From Pseudomonas sp. PSKL.D1 (GTDB taxonomy: Bacteria; Pseudomonadota; Gammaproteobacteria; Pseudomonadales; Pseudomonadaceae), in assembly GCF_028898945.1 (NCBI RefSeq), contig NZ_CP118607.1:3148001-3212000 (forward strand): a stretch of DNA of 64,000 nucleotides, in the 5' to 3' direction. The notes beneath the pieces were generated by a model. That model was not told the origin of the DNA and did no database searches. It saw only the letters and a list, made by a program, of their open reading frames with translations. This document shows, piece by piece, positions 43,080 to 60,623 of the stretch. Made by a program: the position numbers and the translations under genes. Every line of letters starts with the position of its first letter. The stretch's first letter is position 1.

Positions 43080-44273
43080 TCAGCATGGTTCGCCCTCGTT
43101 AACCCTCGAATCCTGGCGCAGCACCATTGCCACACTCGCCGCCGCCAGCACCAGCAGCGTCGATGTCGCGAGCAGCAAACCACCCACACCGGCACCGGCG
43201 GCCAATATCTGCCCTGCCAGTAGCGGCCCGCTCATCGATCCCAGGCGGCCAACCGCAACTGCCACGCCGACTCCAGTAGCGCGCACATCGTCCGGGTACA
43301 AGCGTGGTGCCAACGCATAGAGAATCAACTGCCCGCCTACGGCACAGGCGCCGGCTAGCGCCCCGGCCACATAGAGCAGATGCAGTTGTTTGAGATAACC
43401 CAGCGCTGCAAGCGCGAGCAACATGCCGGGGTAGACCATCGCCACCGCCAGCAGTGAACGCTGGCGATCCATCAAGCGGCCGGCCACCAACACGCCAGCA
43501 ACGCCGCCGAGGTTGAACAGTACCTGGACAAAGGAGCTATCGAGTCGGCTGAGCTCGCGCCCGGCCAGCAGTGTGGGCAGCCAGTTGAGCAGCATGTAGA
43601 GGATCATCAGTGTGCAGAAGCAACTGCACCAGAGCAGCAAAGTGCTGCGGCTTTGCTGGCGACCAAGCACTACATTGGTACTTTGCGACAAGGTCAGCGG
43701 TCGGCTAACCAGAGGCCGGGACTCAGGCAGCCACAGCATCAGCAGCCCGGCGATCAGCAGCGGCGCAATGCCGCCGACATAGAACACCAGCCGCCATTCA
43801 CCGACCGGCGCGAACATGCCAATCAGTGCCGCGCAGGCACCGCCCAGCGGTACGCCGCAGTAGGTCAGGCTGACCGCCATATTGCGCGAATCGCGACTGG
43901 CGACTTCCGAGGACAAGGCAATCAGGATCGGCAGTGCCGCGCCCATACCCAGACCGGTGACCAGGCGCGCAATCAGCAACTGCGTGTAGCTGGCGCTGTT
44001 GGCGGTCAGGAGTGAGAACAGGCCGAACAGGCTCACGGCAGCAATCAGCACACGCCTGCGTCCCAGCCGGTCGGCCAGCCAGCCACCAGCCAGGGCGCCG
44101 GGCAGCAAACCCACCAGGCCGGCGGTGAAGGCCCAGCCGAGGGCCGCTGGCGACAGATTGAACTCACGAATCAGGTGGGGAGCTGCAATACCTGTGGCCT
44201 GTAGATCCAGGCCTTCGAGCAAGGCCACGACAAAACAGAGCGCAATGGTGCGCACGGTGGATGGAGTAGACAT
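43080..44273 (-). CDS. MFS transporter, aromatic acid:H+ symporter (AAHS) type
   Basis: A 397-residue transporter with the AAHS opening ALLEGLDLQATGIAAPHLIREFNLSPAALGW and WLADRLGRRRVLIAA loop 2-3 motif. It is close in plan to MhpT/HcaT and PcaK, importers of phenylpropanoids and hydroxybenzoates. It lies downstream of the fcs-vdh-ech genes on the same strand, beyond a broken thiolase gene, and would bring ferulate/coumarate or a related acid into the cytoplasm. Twelve hydrophobic segments can be counted. The start is ATG 44273, following GAGG. Confidence 0.85.
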   Translation of the reverse strand: MSTPSTVRTIALCFVVALLEGLDLQATGIAAPHLIREFNLSPAALGWAFTAGLVGLLPGALAGGWLADRLGRRRVLIAAVSLFGLFSLLTANSASYTQLLIARLVTGLGMGAALPILIALSSEVASRDSRNMAVSLTYCGVPLGGACAALIGMFAPVGEWRLVFYVGGIAPLLIAGLLMLWLPESRPLVSRPLTLSQSTNVVLGRQQSRSTLLLWCSCFCTLMILYMLLNWLPTLLAGRELSRLDSSFVQVLFNLGGVAGVLVAGRLMDRQRSLLAVAMVYPGMLLALAALGYLKQLHLLYVAGALAGACAVGGQLILYALAPRLYPDDVRATGVGVAVAVGRLGSMSGPLLAGQILAAGAGVGGLLLATSTLLVLAAASVAMVLRQDSRVNEGEPC

Positions 44274-44326
44274 AGGAACCTCGGTTTTATTGTTGTAGGA
44301 GGGGTGGCATCAGGGCGTAATTACGC

Positions 44327-44899
44327 TCAGGTGCCGGCAGGGTTTTCCAGCAGTACCTCTTCACGCTGCAGGCCCTAACGCCGCGCCAGGTTATGCGCCA
44401 TGTCGATCATGGTCTGCCCAATGGCCGGATCGAGTAGCGCCTCCCAGAGGAAATCTTTGAAGCCCACCGGCGTACCGAGAAGAAAACCGCCGCGGTGCTC
44501 ATAGCTGGCAATTGGGTTACGCGACATCGATTCGACCGCAACACAAAGCGCCAGCCGGAATGTGCACTTCTCCACCTGGTTGCCTGCCTGGCGTAACAGC
44601 TCCAGGCCGATACCACAGATTCGCTGTACGGCCAGCGCCGGCACCTGCAGAGGCACGTCAGCGTAAAAGCCGATATGCTGCGGCAACATGTAGGCATCGG
44701 AACTGGCCTGGGCCAGGCTGCCGGCCAGCAAGCTGTCGACCTGCTCCGCGCCGATGCCGGCACGTGCAAGCACACTTCGCGCAGCGTGAATACCTAGATC
44801 AATAGGCGAGACCTGGGCCAGCGCCCCGCCGTAGTCGATCCAAGGCGTGCACGCTGCTAGCAACGCGACCTGCTCGAAGAACTCGAACTACCCGCTCAT
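44327..44899 (-). pseudogene. Thiolase (acetyl-CoA acetyltransferase) remnant, 3' deleted, two TAG codons
   Basis: The ATG at 44899 overlaps the fcs stop (ATGA). The frame reads MSG, then TAG (44888-44890), then FEFFEQVALLAACTPWIDYGG and a normal thiolase N-domain with the acyl-accepting Cys in VQRICGIGLELLRQAG. A second TAG (44375-44377) falls where thiolases have Tyr (NLARR*GLQREEV). The frame then leaves the family after REEV and ends at 44327, so the C-terminal half with the His and second Cys is missing. It is a relic of the aat gene that accompanies ferulate genes in some Pseudomonas clusters. Not functional as a thiolase. Confidence 0.8.
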
Positions 44900-46773
44900 G
44901 CATCCTCCTCGACCACTGCGCCGTTAGCGCCGGGGTCTGTATACAGGGCATCGACCAGGGCAACGCGGCGGCTCAATACTACGCGCTGGTTAAGCGACCC
45001 CTTGTCGGTGACCTCGCCAGCATCCAGGCTCGGTGCCTCGGTCATCGGGCAGAGCCAGGCGATGCGCGAGGCCAACCCGGTAGCGTCGCGGTTCAGCTCG
45101 GCCAGCAGACTAGATAGCCAGTGCCGTACGGGAACTGCCGACAGCACCTCGCCGACATCGGCGTCATCCGCCAGCCCGGCCAATTCGCGGCAGGCCGGCA
45201 GGTACGGGAACAACAGCAGACCGAGGCGCTGGCGATCCGGGCCGGTTACCACCACATCCTGCACATAAGGTGCGCCTTGTAGCACAACCCGAGTACGCAG
45301 CGGGCCGACGCTGACGAATACGCCGGTGGACAGCTTGAAGTCCTCGGCAATACGCCCGTCGAACATCAATCCCAGCTGCGGTTGCTCGGGATCGGCAAAC
45401 TTCAGTGCATCGCCAGAGCGATAGAAGCCTTCCTCGTCGAAGGCATCGAGAGTCTGCTGCCACGAACGCCAGTAGCCCGACATGATGTGCGGGCCGCGGA
45501 AGCGCCCCTCCAGCTTGCCCTCGACCGGGACAAGTTTCACCTCACAACCAGGCGCCGGCAGGCCGATATAACCGGCCATGGACAGGGGGCCGGTGGTGAA
45601 GGTGCAGGACGGCGAGGCCTCAGTCATTCCCAGGCCGGCCATCATGCGAATACGCTCGCCGCAGTGTTGCTCGGCCGCACGATCAAGACGATCCCAGACG
45701 CTCTGCGACAACCCGGCGGCCGCGAAGAACAGTAGCTTGATACGCGAGAAGAAGCTGTCGCGCAGCTCGGAGTCGCACTCCAGCGCCCCGACCAGCTCTT
45801 CCCAACCTTTAGGCACGGTGAGGTAGGCCGTAGGTGCAATCTCTTTGAGGTTGCGCAAAGTTTCCGCCATGCCCTGCGGCGTTGGCTTGCCACCATCGAT
45901 ATACAGACTGCCGCCGTTGTACAGCACGATGCCTACGTTGTGGCTGCCTCCGAACGTGTGGTTCCACGGCAGCCAGTCGACCAGCACCGGCGGCTCGACG
46001 GCGAACTCGGGAAAGGTCTGTAGCAGCATTTGCTGATTGGCGCAGAGCATACGTTGGGTGGTCGGTACGGCCTTGGGCAACTTGGTTGAACCGGAGGTGA
46101 AAAGAAACTTGGCGATGCTGTCGGCATCCGTACCGGCGAACGCCAGGTCAGCCAGGGTGCAGTCACTCTGCTGCAATAGGCTGGCGAAGCGCTCGCAGAC
46201 CCGACCGGGTAGTTCGCCACGGGTGAATACGAGCGGGGTCTCCACAGGGCTCAGCGCCTCGATGGCACGCTGGAATGGCGTGGCATCGGCGGCAAAGATC
46301 AGCCCTGGCTGTAGCAGCTCGAAGATATGCCGCAGCTTGGCCAGATCCTGCGAAAGCAGGGCGTAGGCCGGCGATACCGGGCAATAGGGAATGCCCGCAT
46401 ACATGGCGGCGAAGGCCAGCTGCAGGTGTTCCAGATCATTGCCGGAGAGGATCACCAGCGGCCGTTCGGCGGACAGGCCATAGCGGAGCAACGACTGCGC
46501 CAGGGCACGCACATTGACCAGCATCTGCCGATAGCTGATGCGCTGCCATTGGCCTTCACTATCGCGCTGGGCCACCAGGGTCGTATCCGGTTTCAATTCG
46601 GCCCAATGCAGCAGGCGGTCGAGCAGGTGTCCGGGATAGGGTTGCAAGGGCTCGTCGGCAAGCAGGTAGAACTCGCCACCAGTGCCGGGGGTGATGGTCA
46701 CCGAAGGTTGGCCGATGGCGACCTGGCGATAGCGTGGCGCCTCAGAGCGCTGCGCTGTTGCTTCAACATTCAC
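44896..46773 (-). CDS. fcs: Feruloyl-CoA synthetase
   Basis: A 625-residue ANL-superfamily acyl-CoA ligase. The phosphate loop is KFLFTSGSTKLPKAVPTTQ, the core motif GLGMTEASPSCTF, the hinge Asp region YRSGDALKF, and the C-terminal Lys in EVTDKGSLNQR. It activates ferulate, p-coumarate or caffeate to the CoA thioester. The start is GTG 46773 with AGGAAAGGCG upstream. It follows vdh on the minus strand by 121 bases. Length and motifs match the Pseudomonas Fcs branch. Confidence 0.92.
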   Translation of the reverse strand: MNVEATAQRSEAPRYRQVAIGQPSVTITPGTGGEFYLLADEPLQPYPGHLLDRLLHWAELKPDTTLVAQRDSEGQWQRISYRQMLVNVRALAQSLLRYGLSAERPLVILSGNDLEHLQLAFAAMYAGIPYCPVSPAYALLSQDLAKLRHIFELLQPGLIFAADATPFQRAIEALSPVETPLVFTRGELPGRVCERFASLLQQSDCTLADLAFAGTDADSIAKFLFTSGSTKLPKAVPTTQRMLCANQQMLLQTFPEFAVEPPVLVDWLPWNHTFGGSHNVGIVLYNGGSLYIDGGKPTPQGMAETLRNLKEIAPTAYLTVPKGWEELVGALECDSELRDSFFSRIKLLFFAAAGLSQSVWDRLDRAAEQHCGERIRMMAGLGMTEASPSCTFTTGPLSMAGYIGLPAPGCEVKLVPVEGKLEGRFRGPHIMSGYWRSWQQTLDAFDEEGFYRSGDALKFADPEQPQLGLMFDGRIAEDFKLSTGVFVSVGPLRTRVVLQGAPYVQDVVVTGPDRQRLGLLLFPYLPACRELAGLADDADVGEVLSAVPVRHWLSSLLAELNRDATGLASRIAWLCPMTEAPSLDAGEVTDKGSLNQRVVLSRRVALVDALYTDPGANGAVVEEDA

Positions 46774-46894
46774 TTCGCCTTTCCTCTGATACAGCGCCTG
46801 CGGCGGGCCTCTGGAGCCACGCCGGACGCAAGGATTGTTTTTATTCTCTTACGCGGAGCGGCACCGACCGGCGCGCCCCTTAACAACAGCAAGC

Positions 46895-48343
46895 TCAGAT
46901 CGGGTAGTGACGCGACCCGTTCTGCACCGTCACCCAGCGCAACTGGGTGAAGTAATCGATCGACGCGCGGCTACCGAAGCTGCCGTAGCCGCTGGACTTC
47001 ACCCCGCCGAAAGGCATCTGCGCCTCGTCGTGCACGGTCGGCCCATTGATATGGCAGATACCCGATTCAAGCCGCTGCGCCAGCGTCAACGCACGCGACA
47101 CATCGCGGCTGAAGATCGCTGCCGACAGACCGAACTCGGAGTCATTGGCCAAACGCAGCAGTTCCTCGTCGCCCGCACCGCGCAGCACCACCGCGACCGG
47201 GCCGAAAGACTCCTCGTGATACAGACGCATGTCCGCCGTCACCTCATCCAACAACACCGGCTGCATGATGCTGCCCTGCACGCCACCACCGGCGACCAGG
47301 CAGGCGCCCTTGGCAAGCGCATCATCGACCAGCGCCTGGATACGCTGGCCGGCTGCCGCGTCGATCAGTGAACCGAGCACGGACTTGCCGTCCTGCGGGT
47401 CGCCTGCACGCAGCTTGGAAACCCGGAATGCCAGCTTGATCACGAAGGCATCGGCCACTCTGGCGTCGACGATCAAGCGCTCGGTGGACATGCAGATCTG
47501 CCCCTGGTTGAAGTAGGCACCGAACACCGCAGCATCGACCGCCGCATCCAGATCGGCATCGTCCAGAACGAGCAACGGCGCCTTGCCGCCCAGCTCCAGC
47601 AGTGCCGGCTTCAGGTGCCGCGCCGACAGCTCTCCGACGATTCGCCCGACATGGGTGGAACCGGTGAAATTGACCCGACGCACCAGCGGATTGGCGATCA
47701 GCCGCTCCACAATGGCCGGTGCATCTTCCGGTGCGTTGCTGATGATGTTGACCACGCCATCGCCCAGCCCGGCCTCGTACAGCACCTGGCCGATCAATCG
47801 GTGGGTGGTGGGACTCAGCTCGGAAGCCTTGAGCACCACCGTGTTGCCGCAGGCCAGCGGCATGGCCAAGGCGCGCACGCCGAGAATCACCGGGGCGTTC
47901 CACGGCGCGATGCCGAGCACCACGCCGCATGGCTGGCGCAGCCCCATAGCGAAACTGCCGGGCACATTGGAGGGGATGACCTCGCCGAGAATCTGCGTGG
48001 TCATCGCCGCCGCCTCGCGCAGCATCCCGGCGGCCAACTGTACGTTGAAGCCATACCAGTTGGCTGCCGCGCCGGTTTCACTGGCTGCCGCCATGAACTC
48101 GGGCGAACGGGCCTCCATCAGCTCCGCCGCCTTGAGCAGGCGCAAGCGGCGCTCGCCTGGCGGCAGAGCGGCCCAGGCTGTGAATGCCGCCTGCGCGGCG
48201 GCCACGGCCGCATCGGCATCTTCCAAGGTAGCGGCGGCGACCCGCGCCACCACTTCCCCGGTCAGCGGGCTACGGCGTTCGAAAGTACGACCATTGGCGG
48301 CTGGGCGCGCCTGGCCGGCGATCAGCAGGGACACATCGTTCAT
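46895..48343 (-). CDS. vdh: Vanillin dehydrogenase
   Basis: A 482-residue aldehyde dehydrogenase. It contains Cys284 in NQGQICMSTERLIVD, the base Glu in LELGGKAPLLVLDDAD, and the cofactor segment FTGSTHVGRIVGE. The PMPFGGVKSSGYGSFGSRASIDYFTQ-type ending (QMPFGGVKSSGYG) is typical of salicylaldehyde/vanillin dehydrogenases. It oxidises vanillin or 4-hydroxybenzaldehyde, made by the hydratase-lyase, to the acid. Between ech and fcs on the minus strand. Confidence 0.92.
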   Translation of the reverse strand: MNDVSLLIAGQARPAANGRTFERRSPLTGEVVARVAAATLEDADAAVAAAQAAFTAWAALPPGERRLRLLKAAELMEARSPEFMAAASETGAAANWYGFNVQLAAGMLREAAAMTTQILGEVIPSNVPGSFAMGLRQPCGVVLGIAPWNAPVILGVRALAMPLACGNTVVLKASELSPTTHRLIGQVLYEAGLGDGVVNIISNAPEDAPAIVERLIANPLVRRVNFTGSTHVGRIVGELSARHLKPALLELGGKAPLLVLDDADLDAAVDAAVFGAYFNQGQICMSTERLIVDARVADAFVIKLAFRVSKLRAGDPQDGKSVLGSLIDAAAGQRIQALVDDALAKGACLVAGGGVQGSIMQPVLLDEVTADMRLYHEESFGPVAVVLRGAGDEELLRLANDSEFGLSAAIFSRDVSRALTLAQRLESGICHINGPTVHDEAQMPFGGVKSSGYGSFGSRASIDYFTQLRWVTVQNGSRHYPI

Positions 48344-48379: not shown

Positions 48380-49210
48380 TCAGCGCTTGTAGGCTTCGAG
48401 GCCCGGCTTGATGCTCTTGTCGTCGAGGAACTGCTTCATACCCTGCTCACGGCCGCCTTCCGGATCGAGCAGACGGGACTGATCGAGCTTGGCGTACAGG
48501 TAGTCCTCGTTCTGCTCCCAGGTCAGCTCGCGGCAACGCTTGAAGCCGATCTTGGCCGCGCGCAGTACCACCGGATTCTTGTCCAGCAGATTCTCTGCCA
48601 GCTCACTGGTCACCTCGCGCAGTTGCGCCAGCGGCACGCTCTGGTTGACCAGGCCCATGGCCGCAGCCTTTTGCCCGTCGAAGGTCTTGCCAGTCATGAT
48701 GTAGTACAGCGCCTCGCGGTGGCCGCAGGTGTCGGCCATCGCCTTGCTGACAAGGTTGCCCGGCGGAATGCCCCAGTTGATTTCCGACAGGCCGAAGGTC
48801 GCCTCGTCGGCACAGATGGCCAAATCGCAGGCCACCAGCGGGCTGAAGCCACCGCCGAAGCACCAGCCATTGACCATGGCGATGGTCGGCTTGGTGTACA
48901 TACGCAGCAGTTTCCACTGCCATTGCGAGGCCTCGCGGCGGATCTTCTCCTGGAGGATTTCCGGGCCTGCATCGATCTCGCGGAAGTACTCCTTAAGGTC
49001 CATGCCTGCGGTCCAGGATTCACCAGCCCCGGTCAGCACCAGTACACGCGCTTCGGCGTCCTGCTCCAGGGTCTCCAGCACCTCGACCATCTCGCGGTTG
49101 AGCGTCGGGCTCATGGCATTGCGCTTCTCCGGGCGGTTGAGGGTTACCCAGGCGATGCCCGCGTCCAGTTCAACCTTCACGGTCTGCCAACGGCCTTCAT
49201 AGCTGCTCAT
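48380..49210 (-). CDS. ech: Hydroxycinnamoyl-CoA hydratase-lyase (enoyl-CoA hydratase/aldolase)
   Basis: 276 residues from ATG 49210, the exact length of characterised Pseudomonas feruloyl-CoA hydratase-lyases; GAGGTG lies 7 bases upstream, and a GTG at 49219 is less likely. Crotonase-fold motifs are MVNGWCFGGGFSPLVACDLA (oxyanion hole) and ATFGLSEINWGIPPGN with the catalytic Glu. It hydrates feruloyl-CoA and splits it to vanillin plus acetyl-CoA. First gene of the ech-vdh-fcs run; its promoter carries MarR-type operators. Confidence 0.93.
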   Translation of the reverse strand: MSSYEGRWQTVKVELDAGIAWVTLNRPEKRNAMSPTLNREMVEVLETLEQDAEARVLVLTGAGESWTAGMDLKEYFREIDAGPEILQEKIRREASQWQWKLLRMYTKPTIAMVNGWCFGGGFSPLVACDLAICADEATFGLSEINWGIPPGNLVSKAMADTCGHREALYYIMTGKTFDGQKAAAMGLVNQSVPLAQLREVTSELAENLLDKNPVVLRAAKIGFKRCRELTWEQNEDYLYAKLDQSRLLDPEGGREQGMKQFLDDKSIKPGLEAYKR

Positions 49211-49260
49211 GTGACTCACCTCTTGTTTTGTTTGGGTGAGGCAAAGCTATGCCGACAAAT

Positions 49261-49426: not shown

Positions 49427-49894
49427 ATGCCCCGCAAGCCCAAGGAATCAGTCGCCCAACCCATGCAGGAGCCGCTGGACAGCTTACTCAACAACCTGGT
49501 CGGCTACGTGATGCGCCGCGCGCAAATGAAGATCACCCAGCACCTGACCAATCGCCTGGAAGAACACGACATCCGTCCTGCCCAGTTCACCGCGCTGAGC
49601 ATCATCGAACAGTCACCAGGACTAATGCAGGCAGATCTGGCCAAGGCCTTGGCGATCGAGCCGCCGCAAACAGTGCTGATGATCAATAAGCTGGAGAGTC
49701 GCGGCCTGGCCATGCGCGTGCGCAGCAATCCGGACAAGCGCTCATATGGCCTATTCCTGAGCAAGGCCGGCGAACAATTGCTGGCGCAACTCAAGGACCT
49801 GGCCGCGCAGAGTGACCTGGAAAGCACCGCAGCACTGAGCGATTCAGAGCGCGAACAGCTGCTGACCCTGCTGCACAAGCTCTATCGTGACTGA
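49427..49894 (+). CDS. MarR-family regulator of the ferulate genes
   Basis: A 155-residue MarR protein. The winged helix includes PAQFTALSIIEQSPGLMQADLAKALAIEPPQTVLMINKLESRGLAMRVRSNPDKRSYGLFLSKAG. It is divergent from ech. MarR repressors released by hydroxycinnamoyl-CoA thioesters (FerC/FerR/CouR type) control these pathways in several bacteria, and position plus two matching palindromes suggest the same here. Ligand identity is inferred. Confidence 0.87.
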   Translation: MPRKPKESVAQPMQEPLDSLLNNLVGYVMRRAQMKITQHLTNRLEEHDIRPAQFTALSIIEQSPGLMQADLAKALAIEPPQTVLMINKLESRGLAMRVRSNPDKRSYGLFLSKAGEQLLAQLKDLAAQSDLESTAALSDSEREQLLTLLHKLYRD

Positions 49895-49904
49895 GTCATA
49901 GACC

Positions 49905-50507
49905 TCAGGGTGCCAGCCCGTCGAACAGGGTTTGGGTCAGTTGGCGGATGCGCCTCTCATGCGCGAACAGATCCGGCACCTGGTCCTGGACCAGGCGCAT
50001 GAACAGCACCGAGCTGTAGTCGTTGAGGAAGTCGGCCACGAAGTCGACATCCAAATCCTTTCTGAGCAGGCCGCGCGCCTGCAACTCGCGCAACAGGTCG
50101 CCGACCTGCTGGACCAGGCGTGAATTTAGCTGAGCCGCTGCTTCGGGGCGCTGGGTGAGCAGCCCCAGCGGCAATAGCTCACGCCAGATGGCCACTGGCA
50201 GCGCCTCCAGCTCCTGGCGGATGATCTGCGATTCCAGGTGACACATGGCATCGACCGCATTGTCGAAAGCCGGCATCTGCAACCGCGCGTCCGACACCGC
50301 GCGCTGATCTGCCTTTTCCAGCAGCGCCAGCAGGATGTCCTGCTTGCTACCGAAGTAGTTAAACACCGTGGGCGTGGACACCCCCGCCTGCACCGCGATC
50401 TGTTCGACCGTGGTCGAGGAAAAGCCCTGCCCCTCGAACAACGCCAATGCTGCCCCAACGATTGCCTCCCGACGCTGCTCCTTCTGCCGCTGCCGCAATC
50501 CGCTCAT
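49905..50507 (-). CDS. TetR-family regulator
   Basis: A 200-residue TetR protein: HTH at residues 10-55 (RREAIVGAALALFEGQGFSSTTVEQIAVQAGVSTPTVFNYFGSKQDIL), then an all-helical ligand domain. Divergent from the NylB-like hydrolase gene at 50635 across 127 AT-rich bases that contain a 17-bp perfect palindrome. It probably represses the hydrolase-to-amidohydrolase run. Its stop is 10 bases from the stop of the convergent marR gene. Confidence 0.87.
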   Translation of the reverse strand: MSGLRQRQKEQRREAIVGAALALFEGQGFSSTTVEQIAVQAGVSTPTVFNYFGSKQDILLALLEKADQRAVSDARLQMPAFDNAVDAMCHLESQIIRQELEALPVAIWRELLPLGLLTQRPEAAAQLNSRLVQQVGDLLRELQARGLLRKDLDVDFVADFLNDYSSVLFMRLVQDQVPDLFAHERRIRQLTQTLFDGLAP

Positions 50508-50564: not shown

Positions 50565-50581
50565 TCAAATATTTTATTTGA
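50565..50581. promoter_or_regulatory. Candidate TetR operator
   Basis: TCAAATA-TTT-TATTTGA is a perfect inverted repeat in the divergent TetR/NylB-like promoter region, 54 bases before the hydrolase start. Length and symmetry suit a TetR dimer. Confidence 0.6.
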
Positions 50582-50634
50582 CTATAAATTTTTATGATTA
50601 TAAAAAAAAGGCACTAACAGCGGAGAGAGTTTCC

Positions 50635-51867
50635 ATGAGTACCGATTTCGCCCTAGCGCTTCGCGGCGCGTATCACGCCAGCGCCACCCCGATGCAGCCG
50701 TTGATGCAAGGCTTCCCGCCGCCCGCGGAGCAGCGCGTGACCTGGCACAACTTCATGACGCCGCCCCACAACCGCTGGGCTTTCCACAACCTGGGGCGCA
50801 TCCGCCCGAACATCAGCGTCGAGCGCGGTGCCGGCCAGGTTCGCTCACTGCCCGTCGCCCCTTACGACATCGATGGTTTTTCCTTCCAAAGCGCGGCCGG
50901 GCACGAAGTGCATCTGTCGGAGCATCTCAGCGCTACGCATACCGATGGCTGGCTGGTGCTGAAGGACGGACAGATCGTCCACGAGCTCTACGCCAACGGT
51001 CATCAGGAACATAAGCGCCACATCATGTTCTCCGTGACCAAGTCGCTGATCGGCATGAAAGCGCAGGAGCTGGTACAGAGCGGTCAGCTGGACGACCAGG
51101 CCCTTGCCTCCCACTACGTTCCCGAATTTGCCGGCAGCGCCTTTGGCGATGCCAGCGTGCGTCAGCTGATGGACATGGCCGTGGGCATCGACTATGACGA
51201 GGTCTACGACGATCCGAATTCCGGTAGTTCGCAGTTCGGCTACGCCTGTGGCCTCACCCCGCCGCCGCCCGGCATCAAAGCCTGCCAGTCGCTCTACGAA
51301 TACCTGCCAGCCACGCGCAAACTTGGTGAGCATGGCGGTTTCTTCCACTATGTCACCGCCACCACCGAAGCCCTAGGCTGGGTCATGGAGCGCGCCAGCG
51401 GGCGTAGCTGCGCCGCGATGCTTGGCGATATCTGGTCAGAGCTGGGCTGCGAGCGCGATGGCTTCTTCGTCGCCGACCCCTGGGGGCGCAATGTCACTGG
51501 CTGCGGCTTCAACGCGACCCTGCGAGACATGGCCCGCTATGGCGAATTGCTGCTGAGCAAGGGCAACTGCAGGGGCGATCAGCTTATCTCGGCCGATGCC
51601 ATCGGTGCCGTTCTGGCCGGCGGAGACCCGGCAATCTACGCCGCCAATGAAAGCTTCGCCCAATGGAGCCCAGGCGCTAGCTACAAGAGTCAGTGGTACG
51701 TCTATCCAAATGAAGCCCTGCTCGCGGTCGGCATCCACGGCCAGTACCTGTACGTGGACTTCAAGCATGGGGTAGTGATCGTCAAGCAATCGTCCATGCC
51801 GGTAGCCGAAAGCATTCTGGATATCGACACGGTGCGCCTGATACGCGCGCTGGCCCGTACTCTCTAG
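50635..51867 (+). CDS. Serine hydrolase of the NylB/EstB (class C beta-lactamase-like) family
   Basis: 410 residues from ATG 50635 with GGAGAGAG upstream. The SxxK motif SVTKS places nucleophile Ser133 and Lys136; Tyr239 (GGFFHYVTATTEALGW) is the third catalytic residue; and VGIHGQYLYVD stands where beta-lactamases have KTG. Several stretches (PPHNRWAFHNLGRIRP, YVPEFAGSAFGDASVRQLMDM, IDYDEVYDDP) align closely with 6-aminohexanoate-dimer hydrolase NylB, an amidase that also cleaves esters. No signal peptide, so cytoplasmic. First gene of the TetR-flanked run, 25 bases before the binding-protein gene. Confidence 0.88.
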   Translation: MSTDFALALRGAYHASATPMQPLMQGFPPPAEQRVTWHNFMTPPHNRWAFHNLGRIRPNISVERGAGQVRSLPVAPYDIDGFSFQSAAGHEVHLSEHLSATHTDGWLVLKDGQIVHELYANGHQEHKRHIMFSVTKSLIGMKAQELVQSGQLDDQALASHYVPEFAGSAFGDASVRQLMDMAVGIDYDEVYDDPNSGSSQFGYACGLTPPPPGIKACQSLYEYLPATRKLGEHGGFFHYVTATTEALGWVMERASGRSCAAMLGDIWSELGCERDGFFVADPWGRNVTGCGFNATLRDMARYGELLLSKGNCRGDQLISADAIGAVLAGGDPAIYAANESFAQWSPGASYKSQWYVYPNEALLAVGIHGQYLYVDFKHGVVIVKQSSMPVAESILDIDTVRLIRALARTL

Positions 51868-51892: not shown

Positions 51893-52996
51893 ATGAAAAA
51901 ACCATTCAGCACATGCACGGCAGCACTGCTGCTGAGCGCTACCTGCCTCTGGGCGAACGCAGCGCCAGCCGGAGGCGAGCTGCGCATCTACAACTGGATC
52001 GAGTACCTGCCCAAGGACGTCTTGCAGGACTTCCAGAAAGAGTCGGGCATCAAGGTCATCTACGATGTTTTCGACAGTCCGCAAACGCTCGAAGCACGTT
52101 TGCTGACCGGCACTGCCGGCTACGACGTGGCCTTTCCCAGTAGCAGCCAGGTGCCTAACCTGATCGGGGCTGGTGCACTCCAGCCGCTGCAGCGCCAGCA
52201 GCTACCGCATTGGCAGCAACTCGACGCACAGTTCATGCACCAGCGCGAGAACATCGACCCCGGCAACCGTTACTCGGTACCCTATCTCTGGGGCAGTACC
52301 CTGCTCGGCTACAACCAGGCCAAGGTCGAAGCCGTGCTGGGTAAGGGTGTCGACATGCGCGACTACGACCTGATATTCAAGCCCGAGAACATCGCCAAGC
52401 TCAGCCAGTGTGGCGTGGCAATCCTCGATAGCCCGACCGAGATTGTACCGATCACCCTGCGCTACCTGGGCCTCAACCCCAACAGTACCGACCCGGACGA
52501 CTTCGCCAAGGCAGAGGCCGCGCTCAAAGCCATTCGCCCGTACGTACGCTACTTCAACTCGGCAAAGTACCCGCAGGATTTGGCCAACGGCGACATCTGC
52601 GTGGCTCTGGGCTGGTCCGGCGGCATGCTGGCGGCTCGCAACATGGCGCTGGCCGCAAACAACGGTAACGACATTCGTATGGCACTACCGCGTCAGGGCA
52701 CGCTGATGTGGTCGGATGACATGGTCATCCCCAAGGATGCACAGAACCTCAAGCAGGCCCACGCCTTCATCGACTACCTGCTGCGTCCAGAAGTGATTGC
52801 CCGGGTGACCAACCAGATCGGCTACCCCAACCCCAACACGGCCAGCACGGCGCTGGTCGCCCCGGAGTTGCTCAATGAGAAGAACCTGTTCGTTCCGGAA
52901 GAAGATCGCCACCAGCTGTTCCAGGTCGAGCCGCCACACCGCAAAGTTCTGCGCCTGATGACCCGTCTGTGGAACCGGGTGCGCTCCGATGTCTGA
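51893..52996 (+). CDS. PotF/SpuD-like polyamine-type periplasmic binding protein
   Basis: 367 residues with a Sec signal peptide (residues 1-24, MKKPFSTCTAALLLSATCLW..A). The mature part follows PotF closely: LRIYNWIEYLPKDVLQDFQKESGIKVIYDVFDS, LIFKPENIAKL, and YFNSAKYPQDLANGDICVALGW. Ligand-pocket differences from PotF as I remember it: W35 and Y38 kept, Ser replaced by Ile36, and the Asp of GWAGD is Gly244 here. The ligand is thus probably amine-containing but not a free diamine. No permease or ATPase genes accompany it, so it must borrow a transporter or act as a sensor partner. Overlaps the next gene by 8 bases. Confidence 0.85.
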   Translation: MKKPFSTCTAALLLSATCLWANAAPAGGELRIYNWIEYLPKDVLQDFQKESGIKVIYDVFDSPQTLEARLLTGTAGYDVAFPSSSQVPNLIGAGALQPLQRQQLPHWQQLDAQFMHQRENIDPGNRYSVPYLWGSTLLGYNQAKVEAVLGKGVDMRDYDLIFKPENIAKLSQCGVAILDSPTEIVPITLRYLGLNPNSTDPDDFAKAEAALKAIRPYVRYFNSAKYPQDLANGDICVALGWSGGMLAARNMALAANNGNDIRMALPRQGTLMWSDDMVIPKDAQNLKQAHAFIDYLLRPEVIARVTNQIGYPNPNTASTALVAPELLNEKNLFVPEEDRHQLFQVEPPHRKVLRLMTRLWNRVRSDV

Positions 52997-53450: not shown

Positions 53451-53628
53451 CCCAGCATCTAGGCAACCACCTCACCAGCACTGACAACACCAAGCCTTAG
53501 CCACTTTCGGTTCGACTCAGCACGAGCCACATGCATCCTCATGCCCGAAAAAGTGAGCAGGCAGATAACAAGAAATGCAGATCCACTTCATCTCTGCCAG
53601 ATAAATCAGAACAATGGAGCAGAAGTAC

Positions 53629-54471
53629 ATGAACAAGATTGCAACCTGGGGGTTGGCCAGCAGCCTACTCGCCCTTTCCATCTCCGCTCAGGCCGTCGAC
53701 CTGACCCCGGAAACCATGCTGGACATCAACCTCGGCATCGCCAGTGACTGGCGCGTAGGTGGCCTCTCGCTGAACATGGGCGGCGCGCCCGTCTACCAGG
53801 GCAACGCGACCCTGGTGCACAAGCTGAGCGGCCTTTACTTGGGTGCCTATGCTGTATCCGTCGACATGGATACCGAGGCCAACCGCGAGATGGGCTACTA
53901 CGTCGGCATCGCCCGCCCGATCACCGAGGACGCTCGTTTCTCGCTGACCTACATTCGCTACGAATACCCCGGCGACAGCTGGATCAACTTCGACGAACTC
54001 ATCGGCACCCTCAGCTACCGCCAGGCCACTATCGGCGTGAAGTACGCCTGGGACCTGCAGACACCCAAGCCGATTGAGGAGGCCAACGAGCAAATCGCCG
54101 CAGCCCACGCGGCACAGGCCGCTGGACACATTCCAGCGTCAGTACAGCTGCCAGGGCTCATTCCGGAGCGCGACCCACACCGCACCATCGGTTGGGCCGA
54201 ATACGACTTCTACCTGCCCTATGCGACCAAACTTAACGTGCGTTATGGCCACACCTGGACCCCGGACGAGAATGCCTGGACCTCGGCCAGCGGCAAAACC
54301 CGCAGCGGCTACAGCGACTGGGGGGTATCGCTGACCAAGCGCATGTGGGACATCGAGTGGAAGGCCGCCTATATCGACACCGATCTGTCGAAGGCTGAGT
54401 GCCAGAACAACTTCGGCGAGGGCGGCGACTGCCAGGCCACCGTGGTGTTCTCAGCGATGAAGAATTTCTGA
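53629..54471 (+). CDS. TorF-family putative outer-membrane porin
   Basis: 280 residues from ATG 53629 (GGAG 10 bases upstream), with signal peptide MNKIATWGLASSLLALSISAQA. The mature part has alternating beta strands (LGIASDWRVGGLSLNMGGAPVYQ, LYLGAYAVSVD, RFSLTYIRYEY, ATIGVKYAWDL) and a final strand ending in Phe (VVFSAMKNF), the usual signal for outer-membrane barrel insertion. TorF/Gcw_chp proteins are presumed pores. Probably admits the substrate of this gene run. Confidence 0.8.
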   Translation: MNKIATWGLASSLLALSISAQAVDLTPETMLDINLGIASDWRVGGLSLNMGGAPVYQGNATLVHKLSGLYLGAYAVSVDMDTEANREMGYYVGIARPITEDARFSLTYIRYEYPGDSWINFDELIGTLSYRQATIGVKYAWDLQTPKPIEEANEQIAAAHAAQAAGHIPASVQLPGLIPERDPHRTIGWAEYDFYLPYATKLNVRYGHTWTPDENAWTSASGKTRSGYSDWGVSLTKRMWDIEWKAAYIDTDLSKAECQNNFGEGGDCQATVVFSAMKNF

Positions 54472-54551: not shown

Positions 54552-56423
54552 ATGCAGATCACCCCTATCAAGCAAGCACTCGGCCTGAGCGCCCTCTGCG
54601 TAGCGCTGCTGATGGCCGGCTGTAACACCCAACCGCCGATGGACGGCCCACCTCCTTCCGATCGCAGCTTCCAGGCCTTCTGGGGCAAGCGCATCACCGG
54701 CTATATCACCGCAGCCGACGGCACCGAGTTGCGCTACTCGGTACTGCTTCCCAAGGGCGAAGGCAAGTTTCCGGTGCTGATCCGCTACAGCGGCTATGAC
54801 TCCGGCAGCATCGGTGGCTCGGCCTACCTGGCCGACAACGAAACCTTCTCGGTGGCCATGGACAAGGATCTGGTTGAACGCGGCTACGCCGTGATGGGCG
54901 TGCAGGCCCGAGGCACCGGTTGCTCCCAGGGCACCTTCGACTTCCTCGGCCCGCAGTACGGCACCGACGGTCGCAGCGCCGTGGAGTTCGCCGCCCAGCA
55001 GAGCTGGTCCAACGGCAGTGTAGGCATGTTCGGCTGGTCCTGGGCCGGGATGTCGCAGTTAATGACCGCCAGCGAACGCCCCAAGGGGCTCAAAGCCATC
55101 GCCCCCGGCATGATCCTCGGCGACCCGCGTGGCGACAGCTGGGCCCCAGGCGGCGTCCCCAACCAAGAGTTCACCACCACCTGGCACTGGTTCGTCGACA
55201 TGCGCTGGGACGCTGTCAAGGCCAGCGCCCAGACAGAGAAGGACGAACGCTGCCTGGCTCAGGTAGAAGAGAATAAGGCCAAGGTGGTCAGTTCCTCGCT
55301 GATGTACAACCTGATCCGCCACCCGCTGCGCGATGATTGGACCAAACAGCGCGAGCCGCGCAATCGCGCCAACGAGGTACAGGTGCCGGTGCTGTCCATG
55401 CAGAGCTGGCAGGACGAAGCGGTACTGGCCCGCGAAGGCTTCTACCAGGAACGCCTCGACCCGAAACTGCTGTGGATGGTGCAAACCAGCGGTGGCCACA
55501 ATCTCTACGAGTCGGAGCGCTTCCGGAAGGAGAAGCTGTACCCCTTCCTCGACCATTTCGTGAAGGGTGAGCACAACGGTTTCGAGAGCGCCAAACAACT
55601 GGAAATCTGGCAGGAAACCGTGGCAGACGTCCGCGAGGGACGCCATCAACCGAACGAGACGGCTCACCCGAGCTGGACCATCGAGCGCGACCACTACCCA
55701 CTTGCGGTCAAGCCTGTGAGCTTCGCCCTGAGCGAGGACGGTGAGCTGATCGAGGGGGGTCAGGGCAGCGGCGAGCCGGACGCCTACCTCTATCCGATCC
55801 CCGGCCCGGACGTGAACACCTACCTCAAGGACAACGCCTGGGGCTGGCAACACCCGCTGTGGAAACAGGGTAGCCTGGCCTACACCAGCGCGCCGTTCGA
55901 GCGTGACTTCCTCAGCTACGGCACCGCCAGCGCAGACATCTGGCTGTCCACCTTCCTGGCGCCTGATGCGGACGTGCAGGTCACCATCACCGAAGTGCGC
56001 CCGGACGACAAAGAAGTCTTCGTCCAGCGTGGCTGGTTGCGCATGTCCAACCGCATGCTGGATAAGAGCAAGTCCACTGAGCTGCGCCCCTGGCTGGTCG
56101 ACGAGCCGGACGCTATCCAGCCGATGCTACCGAATGTGCCAGCCCTAGGCCGCGTGGAAATTCCGCCGTTCTCCCACCCGTTCCGCAAGGGTTCCAAGCT
56201 ACGCATCTGGATCGACGCGCCCTCGCGCACGGGTGGCTACGGTTTCGCCTACTACTCGCTGCAGAGTCGCAACAGCGTGTACCACGACGCGCAGCACCCG
56301 TCGCGCCTGGTACTGGGTGAGCTGACCGACGTATCCGTACCGGAAGCGCTGCCAGCATGCGACACCCTGCTCAAGCAGCCCTGTCGCCACAACCCGCTGT
56401 CGGCCTTCAGCCGCCCGCTCTGA
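54552..56423 (+). CDS. CocE/NonD-family hydrolase, lipoprotein
   Basis: 623 residues. The signal peptide ends in a lipobox (LLMAGCNTQ, Cys near residue 25), so the enzyme is anchored in a membrane facing the periplasm or surface. The N-terminal alpha/beta hydrolase has the nucleophile elbow FGWSWAGM; an X-Pro dipeptidyl-peptidase-like C-terminal jelly roll begins near residue 400 (FERDFLSYGTASADIWLSTFLAPDADVQVTITEV). Relatives split cocaine and other aromatic esters, glutaryl amides and X-Pro peptides. A catalytic His candidate is in TSGGHNLYES. It could open an ester or amide conjugate before uptake. Confidence 0.87.
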   Translation: MQITPIKQALGLSALCVALLMAGCNTQPPMDGPPPSDRSFQAFWGKRITGYITAADGTELRYSVLLPKGEGKFPVLIRYSGYDSGSIGGSAYLADNETFSVAMDKDLVERGYAVMGVQARGTGCSQGTFDFLGPQYGTDGRSAVEFAAQQSWSNGSVGMFGWSWAGMSQLMTASERPKGLKAIAPGMILGDPRGDSWAPGGVPNQEFTTTWHWFVDMRWDAVKASAQTEKDERCLAQVEENKAKVVSSSLMYNLIRHPLRDDWTKQREPRNRANEVQVPVLSMQSWQDEAVLAREGFYQERLDPKLLWMVQTSGGHNLYESERFRKEKLYPFLDHFVKGEHNGFESAKQLEIWQETVADVREGRHQPNETAHPSWTIERDHYPLAVKPVSFALSEDGELIEGGQGSGEPDAYLYPIPGPDVNTYLKDNAWGWQHPLWKQGSLAYTSAPFERDFLSYGTASADIWLSTFLAPDADVQVTITEVRPDDKEVFVQRGWLRMSNRMLDKSKSTELRPWLVDEPDAIQPMLPNVPALGRVEIPPFSHPFRKGSKLRIWIDAPSRTGGYGFAYYSLQSRNSVYHDAQHPSRLVLGELTDVSVPEALPACDTLLKQPCRHNPLSAFSRPL

Positions 56424-56437
56424 TGCTGTGACGCAAC

Positions 56438-56461: not shown

Positions 56462-56489
56462 TCTTCAACCAAGATTCGGGAGCGAACAG

Positions 56490-57080: not shown

Positions 57081-57088
57081 TGACGCCA

Positions 57089-57121
57089 GGGCGCAGACGT
57101 TTAGCTCCTTGGTCTGCGCCC
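57089..57121 (+). terminator. Hairpin after exported DUF3237 gene
   Basis: GGGCGCAGAC (57089-57098) pairs perfectly with GTCTGCGCCC (57112-57121) over a 13-base loop, 8 bases after the stop. Only a weak pyrimidine tract follows (CGACTTCCTCTCC). Confidence 0.55.
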
Positions 57122-57178
57122 GACTTCCTCTCCTCGTTTTAGCCACCCACCGAGCCAAGCAGTACAGAGAGACTCGTC

Positions 57179-58813
57179 ATGTCCATCCTGAGAAAGGTCG
57201 CCATTGAGCGACGCCTGTGGCTGATTCTGCTCGTGGCCTTGCTGACAAACGCTCTGCTGATGGCCCTGGCCCTGCGCCAGATCCACGAGGGGCTGTATGG
57301 CACCAAGGTCTACCAGATCCAGACTGCCGTAGAAAATACCAATGGCATCCTCCAGCGCTTCTATCAGTTGGAAAAGAAAGGACTGTTGAGCCGGGATGAT
57401 GCCCAGTCCCAGGCTCGCGAGATGATCCGAAGCCTGCGTTACGGCGGCAACGAATACTTCTTCATCCAGAACCTGCAGCAACGCATGCTGCTCCATCCCA
57501 TGAAGCCCGAGATCGAAGGCCGCGACGTCGGCGATCTGAAAGACGCCAAAGGCGTATCGATCAACCGAGAGATGGTCAGAGTTGCCCAGGCCTCAGGGCA
57601 CGGTATTGTCGAGTACAGCTGGCCAAAGCCAGGCTCGGTTCAGCCGGCGGACAAGATTTCCTATATCAGCCTGTTCGAACCCTGGGGCTGGATTCTCGGC
57701 ACTGGCGCCTACATCGACGATATCCAGGCGATATTCTTTGGGGAAGTTATCAGGCTGGGCGGCATCGGTTTGGGCATCACTCTGCTGCTGACCCTGGTCA
57801 CCGCGCTGATCTCACGCAGCATTACCCGGCCACTGTGCAATACCGTGCAGGCAATGGCCGAGATTTCCCGAGGCAATGGTGACTTGACCCGCCAATTAGC
57901 AACTGACGGCCGTGACGAACTTTCCGGTCTGGCCAAGGACTTCAACCGCTTCACCAAAACCGTGCGCGGTCTGATCGGCGAAATACTGGAATCCGCCAGC
58001 GCCACCGACGAGGCCGCCCGAACCATTCAGCACAACGCCACCTCGGCCAGGGCTCAGAGCGACCTGCAGGCGCGGCAGGTCACCCTGATCGCCACTGCAC
58101 TCAACGAAGTGACCTACAGCATCCAGGACGTTGCCGGTAATGCCGAAGCTTCGGCCAGGGAAGTGGCCAATGCCGAGCTACAGGCACTTGACGGTCTGCA
58201 TAACGTAGAACTCACCCTCAATGAAATCGCCTCGCTTTCGTCGCTCATCAGCCAGGGCGTGGAAACTATTCATTCGCTGGCCGAGCAAAACGAACGCATC
58301 AGTTCGGTACTGGCCTTCGTCCGCTCGATTGCCGAACAGACCAACCTGCTCGCGCTTAACGCTGCCATCGAGGCCGCCCGGGCTGGCGAGCAGGGCCGCG
58401 GGTTCGCTGTGGTCGCCGACGAGGTACGGTTACTGGCGCAAAAGACCCAGGATGCCACCGCTGAAATTCAGACGATGATCGGCGAACTGCGCGTCAGCAG
58501 CAGCTCTGCGGTCAACATGATCGGCGACACCCACAGACTGTCCGAGCGCACCGTGACCCAGGCCAACTTGGCCGGGCAATGCCTGCAGGCCATCGTCGAC
58601 TCGCTGCGCGCGATTACCACGCAGGGTCACAGCGTTGCCGAGGCTACACGCCAGCAATCCCTGGCCGTTGAAGACATCAATCAGAACCTGGCCACCGCCT
58701 CCGTACAAGCGCAGGAGGCCGCCCAGTTCGCCAAGCTCACACGCGGACTGAGCGACAGCTTGCAAGCGACCTCCAGCGACCTCCAGCACGCGCTCAAGCG
58801 CTTCACGTTCTAA
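57179..58813 (+). CDS. Methyl-accepting chemotaxis protein with sCache_2 sensor
   Basis: A 544-residue chemoreceptor. TM1 is at residues 12-32 (LWLILLVALLTNALLMALAL). The periplasmic sCache_2 domain includes GGNEYFFIQNLQQRMLLHPMKPEIEGRDV and the FEPWGWILGTGAYIDDI ending. TM2 is near 190-210, then HAMP (SITRPLCNTVQAMAEISRGNGDLTRQL). The signalling hairpin is AEQTNLLALNAAIEAARAGEQGRGFAVVADEVRLLAQ. sCache_2 receptors usually sense small carboxylates. It has no C-terminal methyltransferase-docking pentapeptide. Its place in the run suggests taxis toward the pathway's substrate or product. Confidence 0.9.
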   Translation: MSILRKVAIERRLWLILLVALLTNALLMALALRQIHEGLYGTKVYQIQTAVENTNGILQRFYQLEKKGLLSRDDAQSQAREMIRSLRYGGNEYFFIQNLQQRMLLHPMKPEIEGRDVGDLKDAKGVSINREMVRVAQASGHGIVEYSWPKPGSVQPADKISYISLFEPWGWILGTGAYIDDIQAIFFGEVIRLGGIGLGITLLLTLVTALISRSITRPLCNTVQAMAEISRGNGDLTRQLATDGRDELSGLAKDFNRFTKTVRGLIGEILESASATDEAARTIQHNATSARAQSDLQARQVTLIATALNEVTYSIQDVAGNAEASAREVANAELQALDGLHNVELTLNEIASLSSLISQGVETIHSLAEQNERISSVLAFVRSIAEQTNLLALNAAIEAARAGEQGRGFAVVADEVRLLAQKTQDATAEIQTMIGELRVSSSSAVNMIGDTHRLSERTVTQANLAGQCLQAIVDSLRAITTQGHSVAEATRQQSLAVEDINQNLATASVQAQEAAQFAKLTRGLSDSLQATSSDLQHALKRFTF

Positions 58814-58830
58814 CCCCGAACCCTGTTTCA

Positions 58831-58849
58831 CCGACGCTACACGCGTCGG
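58831..58849 (+). terminator. Hairpin after chemoreceptor gene
   Basis: CCGACGC (58831-58837) and GCGTCGG (58843-58849) form a 7-bp stem with a 5-base loop, 17 bases after the stop. There is no T-tract, so a strong terminator is doubtful. Confidence 0.4.
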
Positions 58850-58877
58850 CGTGCTTTGCCATGAGCCTATAAAAACT

Positions 58878-60623
58878 ATGAAAAGACTCGCCACCACACT
58901 TACCGCCCACTCCCTTTTGCAGGCCTCACTCTCAGCACACGCAGCGGCTGACCTGGTTCTGGTTAATGGCCGCATATTCACCACCGAGCAAACCCAGCCA
59001 CAGGTTCAGGCTATGGCGATCCAGGGCGAGACCATCCTGGCCATCGGAAGCAATAATGAGGTTATGGCTCTGGCTGATAACAACACAGAGATACTCGATG
59101 TCGCCAGCAAACGGGTCATGCCCGGACTGATCGACACCCACTCGCATGCCATCTACGGCGGCCTGTCGCTGTCTTCCGCAAGCATGAAAGATACAGTCGT
59201 CGATCTGCCTGAACTGGAATAGCGCCTGCGCCAGTGGTGCCACGACGGCAGTGCCCGACTGGGCCCGGAGATTCTCCAGGTGCAGGGCATCAACTCCAAA
59301 TACTGGGCGCGCGTGGAGGAATTGGGTCAGCGCTTCAATCACGGTGAGTGGGCCGACACGCCGCTAACCCTGATGGGCAGCGACCATCACACCGCGTGGG
59401 TCAATGCCCGCATGATGCAGATGGCGGGTGTCGGTCAACCTCTGCTGGCCAGTCTCCCGGAAGCCGAGCGCGGAACCATCGGCGTGCTCGCCAATGGTCA
59501 GCCCAGCGGCTTTCTGGTCGATGCCGGTTGGGATCGAGTCTCTGCCATATTGCCACCGATAGATACAGCAACCTTGATGAAGGGCGCCCAGGCGGCAGTG
59601 CGCTACTACACCAGCGTCGGCGTCACCGGCTGGATGGATCCGGCAGCCAATGCCTCTCCAGGTCAGGCAGTGTTCAATATCAAACCGACCGAACACAGTA
59701 CCGGTGTACTCCCTGGCTACAAAGCACTGGCGGAAAAAGGTCGCCTTTACGCCCACGTGGCCGCACTACTGGTAACTAACCCCAAGAGTCGCCCAGCAGA
59801 CCTGGAGGTGTTGGAGAAAGTCCGCCAACAGTTCGCAGGCGTGCCCAACCTGACGCTGCCCGGGGTGAAGATCTTCGCTGATGGAGTTCTAGAGTTCCCC
59901 GCACAAAGCGCCGCGCTGATCGATCCGTACAACAACAGCCACAAACAGGGCGAACTGCTGATCGACCCGCAACACTTCGGCGAACTGGTCACCGCAGTCG
60001 ACCAGCGTGGCTGGTTGATGCACATCCATGCCGTGGGTGATCGCGCCGTGCGCGAGTCCTTAAATGGCTTCGAACAGGTGCGCGAGGCTGACAACAGCGG
60101 CGTTGCCCACTCGATCACCCACTTGCAGCTGGTTCATCCGTGCGAGATCGCCCGCTTCAAGAAACTCAACTTGATTGCCTCAATGCAGCTTCTGTGGGCC
60201 ACGGCGGACGAGTACGCCATCGACATGGTCAAGCCGTACGTCAGCGCTTTCGCCTACCACTATCAGTACCCGGCCCGCTCGTTGCTGAAGGCCGGAGCCA
60301 CCATCGCCGGCGCCAGTGATTGGCTGGTATCCCCTGCCAACCCCTGGCTGGCCATCGCCCGGGCCACCACACGCCAGGGCAACAAGGGCGTACTCAACGA
60401 CAGCGAAACCATTACCCGCGACGTGATGTTCTACGCCTACACCCTAAACGCCGCCAAGACCCTACGTCTTGACGACCGCATCGGCTCACTGGTCAAAGGC
60501 AAGTCGGCAGACTTCGCCATTCTCGATCGGGATGTGTTCAGCGTGAACGAACAGGCACTAAGCGAAACGCAGGTGCTGGCAACCTATTTTGCGGGCCGGA
60601 AGGCGTATCAACGGCAAAGGTGA
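58878..60623 (+). pseudogene. YtcJ-like amidohydrolase interrupted by one in-frame TAG
   Basis: One frame of 582 codons runs from ATG 58878 to TGA 60623, broken only by TAG at 59220-59222 (DLPELE*RLRQW). Metal-dependent amidohydrolase residues are all present: HSH in LIDTHSHAIYGG before the stop, and after it Lys in LPGVKIFADGV, His in LMHIHAVGDRA and Asp in GASDWLVSPAN. A weak signal-like N-terminus (residues 1-23) precedes DLVLVNGRIFTTE. The family hydrolyses amide or cyclic amide bonds, often extracytoplasmically. Either a fresh nonsense mutation or a gene read through by amber suppression; the domain downstream looks undecayed. Confidence 0.85.

Follow-up and report, generated by a model that had tools for sequence, protein, structure and literature searches.

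A relative of the pme cluster beside the ferulate module of Pseudomonas sp. PSKL.D1 may release hydroxycinnamic acids from small conjugates

Results

Gene content of the locus

We analysed a 64,000-nucleotide stretch of DNA from Pseudomonas sp. PSKL.D1 (the window), which spans positions 3148001-3212000 of contig C1 in a one-contig 5.88 Mb genome whose nearest relatives found are Pseudomonas. Within it, an fcs-vdh-ech module for hydroxycinnamate catabolism stands beside a second run of genes headed by a NylB-like serine hydrolase and a PotF-like binding protein. The original prediction for this DNA held that the second run captures and splits a hydroxycinnamoyl conjugate and feeds the acid to Fcs-Ech-Vdh, a general idea that is well supported by the co-occurrence data and by the sister cluster described below.

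Genes of the window were named by Pfam and NCBIfam profile searches. The ech equivalog, an fcs-type ligase and an aldehyde dehydrogenase form one run on the reverse strand: ech (p-hydroxycinnamoyl-CoA hydratase/lyase, 48380-49219) matches NCBIfam PRK09120 at 502 bits against a cut-off of 276, vdh (vanillin/4-hydroxybenzaldehyde dehydrogenase, 46895-48343) carries an Aldedh domain, and fcs (feruloyl/coumaroyl-CoA synthetase, 44896-46773) an AMP-binding domain. Because their scores lie under the NCBIfam cut-offs, the names of fcs (675 bits against 777 for the best model), vdh (under the cut-off in all matches listed, the best 25 of 44) and the binding protein (363 bits against the 636-bit PotF cut-off) rest on family and context. 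Beyond fcs on the same strand lie an N-terminal thiolase remnant (44354-44863), with Thiolase_N alone at 44375-44863, and an MFS transporter (MFS_1, 43080-44273) that probably takes up hydroxycinnamates and whose relatives accompany the ech module in L009, L015, L016, L024, L044, L063 and L064 (L numbers denote the related loci examined below). The thiolase remnant shows 66% identity over residues 1-155, while L009 and L064 match over 382 residues. A MarR gene (49427-49894, forward), probably the regulator of the ech operon, is kept beside ech in L009, L010, L032, L037, L044, L063 and L064. It faces a TetR gene (TetR_N domain, 49905-50507, reverse). The tail-to-tail layout originally proposed for the two runs thus applies to marR and tetR only, since the hydrolase run and fcs-vdh-ech are transcribed away from one another.

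The second run reads forward throughout. Ahead of it, TTGACT and TAAAAA separated by 17 bases (50578-50606) form a promoter-like stretch; TTGAC and the downstream TAAAA are kept in 13 of 13 aligned type A upstream regions (type A is defined below), and we infer that this conserved element is a promoter. The NylB-like hydrolase gene (beta-lactamase family, 50635-51867) is followed directly, with no barrel gene between, by that of the PotF/SpuE-like periplasmic binding protein (51893-52996). Next come a DUF3237 protein without a signal stretch (PF11578, 52989-53450), a TorF-family outer-membrane porin (53614-54471, over the TIGR02001 cut-off), a CocE/NonD family hydrolase with a lipobox-like stretch, LLMAGC (54552-56423), a second DUF3237 protein (PF11578, 56445-57080) whose hydrophobic N-terminal stretch indicates that it is probably exported, and a methyl-accepting chemotaxis protein with a single Cache domain (sCache_2, HAMP and MCPsignal, 57179-58813) that is 72-89% identical in L009-L012. 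The CocE-like protein exceeds the cut-off of the family model TIGR00976; it differs from other members in its lipobox, and its matches to solved cocaine esterases (E ~1e-16) cover only residues ~50-230. All of the genes originally listed were recovered by the profile searches, except that the last, an amidohydrolase gene, is not intact: its frame begins at ~58878 and runs to 60623, with an in-frame TAG at 59220-59222, and the start formerly placed at 59280 is an internal codon. The corresponding frame is open in the relatives L010 and L012. Damage to this gene and to the thiolase gene, at both ends of the locus, suggests partial decay in this strain.

Two types of related locus

Scanning genome contigs for the hydrolase yielded 37 loci from 35 genomes (L044, from the same strain as L012, was left out of the genome set), onto which window genes were mapped by tblastn at 45% identity or above. 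A TetR gene lies near the hydrolase in all 37 and a binding-protein gene in 36, the exception being L025; this arrangement is more than chance. The loci fall into two types. In the twelve type A loci the hydrolase is 70-85% identical to that of the window, and CocE and the TorF porin are always present (12/12 each), the second DUF3237 gene nearly so (11/12) and an outer-membrane barrel never (0/12); the first DUF3237 gene was undetected in seven of the twelve. Type B comprises 25 loci with hydrolases 56-62% identical to that of the window in this mapping (55-63% in a separate comparison), and here the barrel (Pfam Alginate_exp) occurs in 25/25, CocE in 0/25 and the binding protein in 24/25. 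The two types separate with 100/100 support in a midpoint-rooted hydrolase tree, in which the window falls in type A; the tree rows include three genomes twice (L013/L066, L012/L067 and L014/L065). The binding-protein tree likewise places type A in one clade (100/100), and type B is not a single clade there because L041 and L042, which have type B gene content, branch with type A. Both types coexist in P. putida GM4FR (L013, L021) and in P. huaxiensis (L012, L044).

Hydrolase relatives were found in none of 368 genomes outside the genus in a class-wide sample (E <= 1e-100; kinship of the sampled genomes given for the first 21 rows); one named locus lies in Pokkaliibacter (L045), whose genome has ech. 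Among type B loci, an amino-acid permease gene adjoins the TetR gene in L038, L040 and L043 (AA_permease in L040). A block behind TetR in L030, L031, L035 and L039, consisting of an XylR-like sigma-54 activator, an aldehyde dehydrogenase, an SDR protein and DUF1302, resembles PFLU3305-3307 of P. fluorescens SBW25 and possibly serves coniferyl alcohol/aldehyde oxidation.

The published sister cluster

The original prediction knew of no described system with this gene set, a statement overtaken in November 2025 when Wilson et al. (ISME J 2025; PMC12642758) described Pme (PFLU3311), a phenylpropanoid methyl esterase of SBW25. Its gene belongs to a group formed by a TetR gene (PFLU3308), a polyamine binding-protein gene (PFLU3309), a hypothetical gene (PFLU3310) and the serine hydrolase gene itself, beside the ech cluster PFLU3296-3303, and its closest characterised relatives are 6-aminohexanoate-dimer hydrolases (PMC12642758). 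The purified enzyme acts on MHPP, on methyl ferulate and on both the cis and the trans form of methyl p-coumarate, which bears out the ester branch of the original proposal in the sister cluster; neither MHPP nor methyl p-coumarate supports growth of a PFLU3311 deletion mutant, and growth on both is impaired when PFLU3308 is disrupted (PMC12642758). In a pooled screen, pme mutants scored -2.3 on methyl p-coumarate and +2.7 on MHPP, a gain that the authors connect with the C1 unit, which is toxic when set free (PMC12642758). Mutants of the binding protein and of PFLU3310 showed no fitness loss on any Table 1 substrate, the binding-protein mutants scoring 0.34 and 0.64 on methyl esters (PMC12642758). 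The accessible part of the article reports no amide substrate, the sole "amide-" word in its text standing in the sentence on nylon hydrolases (PMC12642758).

Two of our loci, L063 and L064, repeat thirteen SBW25 genes in order (PFLU3304 aside), with the porin at 38% and the MFS transporter at 50-51% identity; the fcs and vdh products of the window are 70% and 81-82% identical to theirs. The hydrolases of L063 and L064, which represent Pme by gene position and not by direct comparison with the PFLU3311 sequence, fall in type B, indicating that the window holds a sister of the pme cluster and not pme in the strict sense. By position, PFLU3310 would correspond to the type B barrel. Window and pme cluster share a TetR gene (that of the window being the counterpart of PFLU3308), a polyamine-type binding protein and a NylB-like serine hydrolase with S-x-x-K and a catalytic tyrosine, all beside fcs-vdh-ech-marR. 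They differ in that the window run lacks the barrel and the SDR/ALDH/sigma54 block and the thiolase gene of the window is truncated; the TorF porin, the CocE lipoprotein, the second, probably exported, DUF3237 protein, the chemoreceptor and the broken amidohydrolase gene are found in the window instead. As judged by gene content and by the placement of its hydrolase outside the clade of SBW25-type enzymes, the window locus is a variant of the kind already described and belongs to a sister clade, type A.

Linkage to hydroxycinnamate catabolism

We next consider how regularly the hydrolase accompanies hydroxycinnamate genes. Among 198 Pseudomonas genomes, the window's own excluded, ech (E <= 1e-110) occurs in 26 of the 27 genomes with a hydrolase orthologue as against 27 of the 171 without (Fisher 9.7e-17), and VanA occurs in 25 of the same 27. 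In 10 of the 27, ech lies within 20 kb of the hydrolase (binomial 6e-16 for even spread over 6.2 Mb, n = 26). Of the genomes behind the named loci, 34/35 carry ech; a single metagenome bin (G133, which contains L026), 88% complete and with the hydrolase at the same contig coordinates, accounts for the missing ech in this count and in the 26 of 27. The original prediction had taken a hydrolase run normally found without fcs, ech and vdh as evidence against itself; since the run is instead nearly always found with the ferulate/coumarate module, this comparison speaks in its favour. Genomes that have paralogues only (32-43% identity) show no such excess, ech being present in 4 of 26 as compared with 23 of 145, and no relative of TetR, the binding protein or ech lies near the paralogue in any of seven loci inspected.

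VanA or at least two genes of the ech module stand within ~10 kb of the hydrolase in 13 of the 37 loci, in at least five arrangements. The fcs-vdh-ech-marR module adjoins tetR in the window and in L009, with VanAB in between in L010, and lies behind the second DUF3237 gene in L015 and L016. In L063 and L064 the order is fcs-vdh-ech-marR-oprD-MFS-SDR-ALDH-sigma54-TetR-SBP-barrel-hydrolase, SBP being the binding protein, as in SBW25. The hydrolase follows marR-ech-vdh-fcs and VanAB in L032, and does so in L037, where the stretch from ech to fcs contains no match to vdh; in L024 and L044 the module lies behind the binding-protein gene. VanAB is divergent from the hydrolase, with no ech module in reach, in L029, L030, L031, L035 and L039, all but the first being the type B loci with the sigma-54 block. 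The neighbours of eight ech-unlinked type A loci gave no substrate clue, families having been searched for two reading frames of L014 only (an ABC ATPase and Fic). Taken together, the data show that the link between the hydrolase run and hydroxycinnamate catabolism is real; a chance neighbourhood is ruled out by the co-occurrence, and the paralogue loci lack the link.

The hydrolase and its binding protein

The best match of the window hydrolase in the PDB is a 6-aminohexanoate-dimer hydrolase (1wyb), and no signal peptide was seen in the protein. Residues S133, K136, Y191 and Y239 align with S112, K115, Y170 and Y215, the catalytic residues of NylB; Y170 is important for amide cleavage by NylB. 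All four are kept in 43 of 43 aligned rows of both types, the window included (three rows being repeated genomes). Family and catalytic residues are thus shared with NylB (1wyb and variants), from which the window enzyme differs in that the match amounts to 198 bits only and the genomic setting is one of hydroxycinnamate catabolism.

Comparison of the binding protein with polyamine receptors of known structure (PotF/SpuD/SpuE; PDB 3ttl, 3ttk, 1a99) shows a full-length match (3ttl, E 1.5e-102) in which the aromatic box and the distal residues E185 and D278 are shared. In PotF, whose residue numbers we adopt, S38, D39 and D247 hold the proximal amine and E185 and D278 belong to the distal group; the swap S38T/D39E/D247S abolished putrescine binding, and at least 96% of 250 PotF relatives retain D247 (PMC8666671). 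The 42 hydrolase-linked binding proteins, merged to 39 distinct sequences, all carry I or L at S38, E at D39, G or A at D247 and S or A at 277 (F in PotF by alignment), and all keep W37, W244, W276, E185 and D278, W276 being as in the PotF F276W variant. The window protein itself has I36, E37 and G244 at the positions of S38, D39 and D247, and its proximal amine site is not matched; nor do ABC permease genes lie beside it in the window. D247 is retained in six of eight paralogues from the same genome (the best eight of 11 other hits). One of these, the closest to the pme-linked proteins in the tree (L074 2145-3248, C1:5827144-5828247), has S at 247, and its ligand may be unusual too.

The simplest reading of this pocket is that the ligand of the linked proteins would present an amine or other cation at the distal end and a neutral group at the proximal end, as a mono-acylated polyamine would. 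Because the linked proteins form one clade, the change represents a single ancestral event, kept since, and not 39. An amine might still be held at the proximal site, E39 and S247 being the PotD-like residues of the PotF swap.

Substrate clues from the genome

The PSKL.D1 genome contains PobA over its family cut-off and no close relative of VanA, the one demethylase sought, whose best hit is 34% identical and spans half of the protein. Both feruloyl and coumaroyl conjugates had been put forward originally; given this gene complement, coumaroyl conjugates are the likelier substrates in this strain and would be degraded completely, whereas breakdown of feruloyl conjugates might stop at vanillate.

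Two further observations concern accessory functions. Lignan and phenylcoumaran acids are decarboxylated by PinX, a DUF3237 protein, and by the related PhcF and PhcG (PMC12607616, PMC12997858); because the family includes such a decarboxylase, coupled dimers are possible substrates. Among the reading frames scanned, polyamine catabolism genes appeared as isolated cases only, near L025 and L028.

Other features of the window

Elsewhere in the window, a 1681-residue protein (19688-24733, forward) has a ToxA_N domain, known from the N-terminus of dermonecrotic toxins, together with leucine-rich repeats, and ends in an E3 ligase domain of the NEL type; it looks like a NEL-family effector or toxin. 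A phage-type integrase with an arm DNA-binding domain (39976-41241, forward) lies a few kb from the ferulate module, and three reading frames around it have no Pfam match (35828-37291, reverse; 37615-38547, forward; 42124-42837, reverse). Past the broken amidohydrolase gene, on the opposite strand, are LamB/YcsF and carboxyltransferase-domain genes of the 5-oxoprolinase type (pxpA/pxpC/pxpB, 60967-63768, reverse). Rfam (gathering threshold) and ARAGORN searches of the window returned no hits.

Discussion

The gene content of the locus, its near-obligate co-occurrence and repeated linkage with ech, its conserved catalytic residues and the existence of a sister type with the pme gene order lead us to propose, with a probability of about 75%, that the window holds a type A relative of pme that frees a hydroxycinnamic acid from a small ester or amide conjugate for Fcs-Ech-Vdh. 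In this scheme the TorF porin would admit the conjugate, the CocE lipoprotein may trim it before it reaches the cytoplasm, the PotF-like protein would capture it, and the NylB-like hydrolase would cleave it once inside the cytoplasm. Fcs, Ech and Vdh would then convert the acid set free, which in PSKL.D1 is probably p-coumarate, to 4-hydroxybenzoate; TetR is predicted to govern the hydrolase run, and the ech operon would be under MarR. Methyl esterase activity and the effect of TetR on methyl-ester growth have been shown by others in the sister pme cluster; for the window version we infer the substrate, the sequence in which the steps follow one another and what CocE, DUF3237 and the binding protein do.

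Several points weigh against this proposal. The hydrolase cut used for the co-occurrence counts (E <= 1e-140) was placed at a gap in the hit list (1e-147 to 1e-90), the counts ignore phylogeny, and the sets of 27 and 35 genomes overlap. Neither VanA nor an ech module appears within the ~10 kb flanks of 24 of the 37 loci, including 8 of the 12 of type A. The coexistence of both types in two genomes argues for different jobs, and at 55-63% identity to type B the window enzyme may have a different substrate. The damaged genes at both ends of the locus point to its partial decay in PSKL.D1, and we came across no measurements of activity, expression or growth for type A.

For the conjugate itself several readings can be weighed. 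Type A could be a plain phenylpropanoid methyl ester (PPME) system like that of SBW25, with the binding protein, porin, CocE and DUF3237 proteins as accessories, and we consider this a serious contender that falls somewhat short of even odds. It draws strength from the substrates of the sister enzyme and the growth failure of its deletion mutant on MHPP and methyl p-coumarate (PMC12642758), and from catalytic residues common to types A and B. It does not readily explain why the binding-protein gene is kept in 24/25 type B and 12/12 type A loci when its mutant is unharmed on methyl esters, why two genomes maintain both types, or why acidic residues for which a neutral methyl ester has no use persist in the pocket; moreover, the pme mutants gained fitness on MHPP, through relief from C1-unit toxicity in the authors' account (PMC12642758). 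Because the pocket is altered, the natural conjugate of the window version may be a different, charged one. A mono-cationic hydroxycinnamoyl conjugate (the coumaroyl or feruloyl amide of putrescine or agmatine, or a choline ester), with methyl esters as side substrates of a tolerant hydrolase, would fit a pocket that has replaced its proximal amine site and retained E185/D278 and the three tryptophans in 39/39 proteins, and is consistent with the loss of putrescine binding in the PotF swap (PMC8666671). The amide-cleaving 6-aminohexanoate-dimer hydrolases as closest solved relatives, the equivalent of NylB Y170 kept in 43/43 rows, and a glutamine-synthetase family gene, possibly for polyamine glutamylation, near the type B loci L025 and L028 all point the same way. 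Nevertheless, the 39 binding proteins amount to one retained change, an amine might yet bind to the PotD-like E at position 39, the window has no ABC permease gene next to that of the binding protein, and polyamine genes are not recurrent neighbours, so that we regard this identity of the substrate as possible but rather doubtful.

Larger substrates would make sense of the DUF3237 proteins. Were these decarboxylases like PinX and PhcF/PhcG, the locus could handle coupled dimers such as 8-5 diferulate-type conjugates or hordatine-like compounds, hordatine A being a dehydrodimer of coumaroylagmatine (PMC13170813). Since the family is broad, the likeness to PinX, PhcF and PhcG consists in the PF11578 domain, and the first DUF3237 gene is undetected in 7/12 type A loci, we think dimers unlikely. 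Finally, the PDB matches to 6-aminohexanoate-dimer hydrolases would also suit an unrelated amide or oligomer hydrolase of the nylon-dimer type that came to lie beside fcs-vdh-ech by accident. This is very improbable, given that the hydrolase co-occurs and repeatedly links with ech and vanA while paralogues without the TetR and binding-protein genes do not co-occur with ech; nylon-oligomer hydrolysis was dismissed as a biological role.

A broader conjecture, which the binding pocket brings to mind and which we advance tentatively as less likely than not, is that the Pme family evolved not for methyl esters but to let Pseudomonas take up and hydrolyse hydroxycinnamoyl conjugates that carry a cation (putrescine or agmatine amides of coumarate or ferulate, or choline esters), for the most part phenolamides of plant defence, with type A as a second branch equipped with a lipoprotein esterase and an exported DUF3237 enzyme of its own. 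Among the open-licence titles listed, none described bacterial phenolamide breakdown, most being plant papers, reviews or unrelated work. Plant-derived inhibitors of nitrification are removed by the pme cluster (PMC12642758), so that what the cluster can use as substrate matters for the chemistry between root and soil. Should the family open phenolamides too, which plants make against pathogens and insects, bacteria would have through it a means of destroying one of the major classes of compounds with which plants defend themselves.

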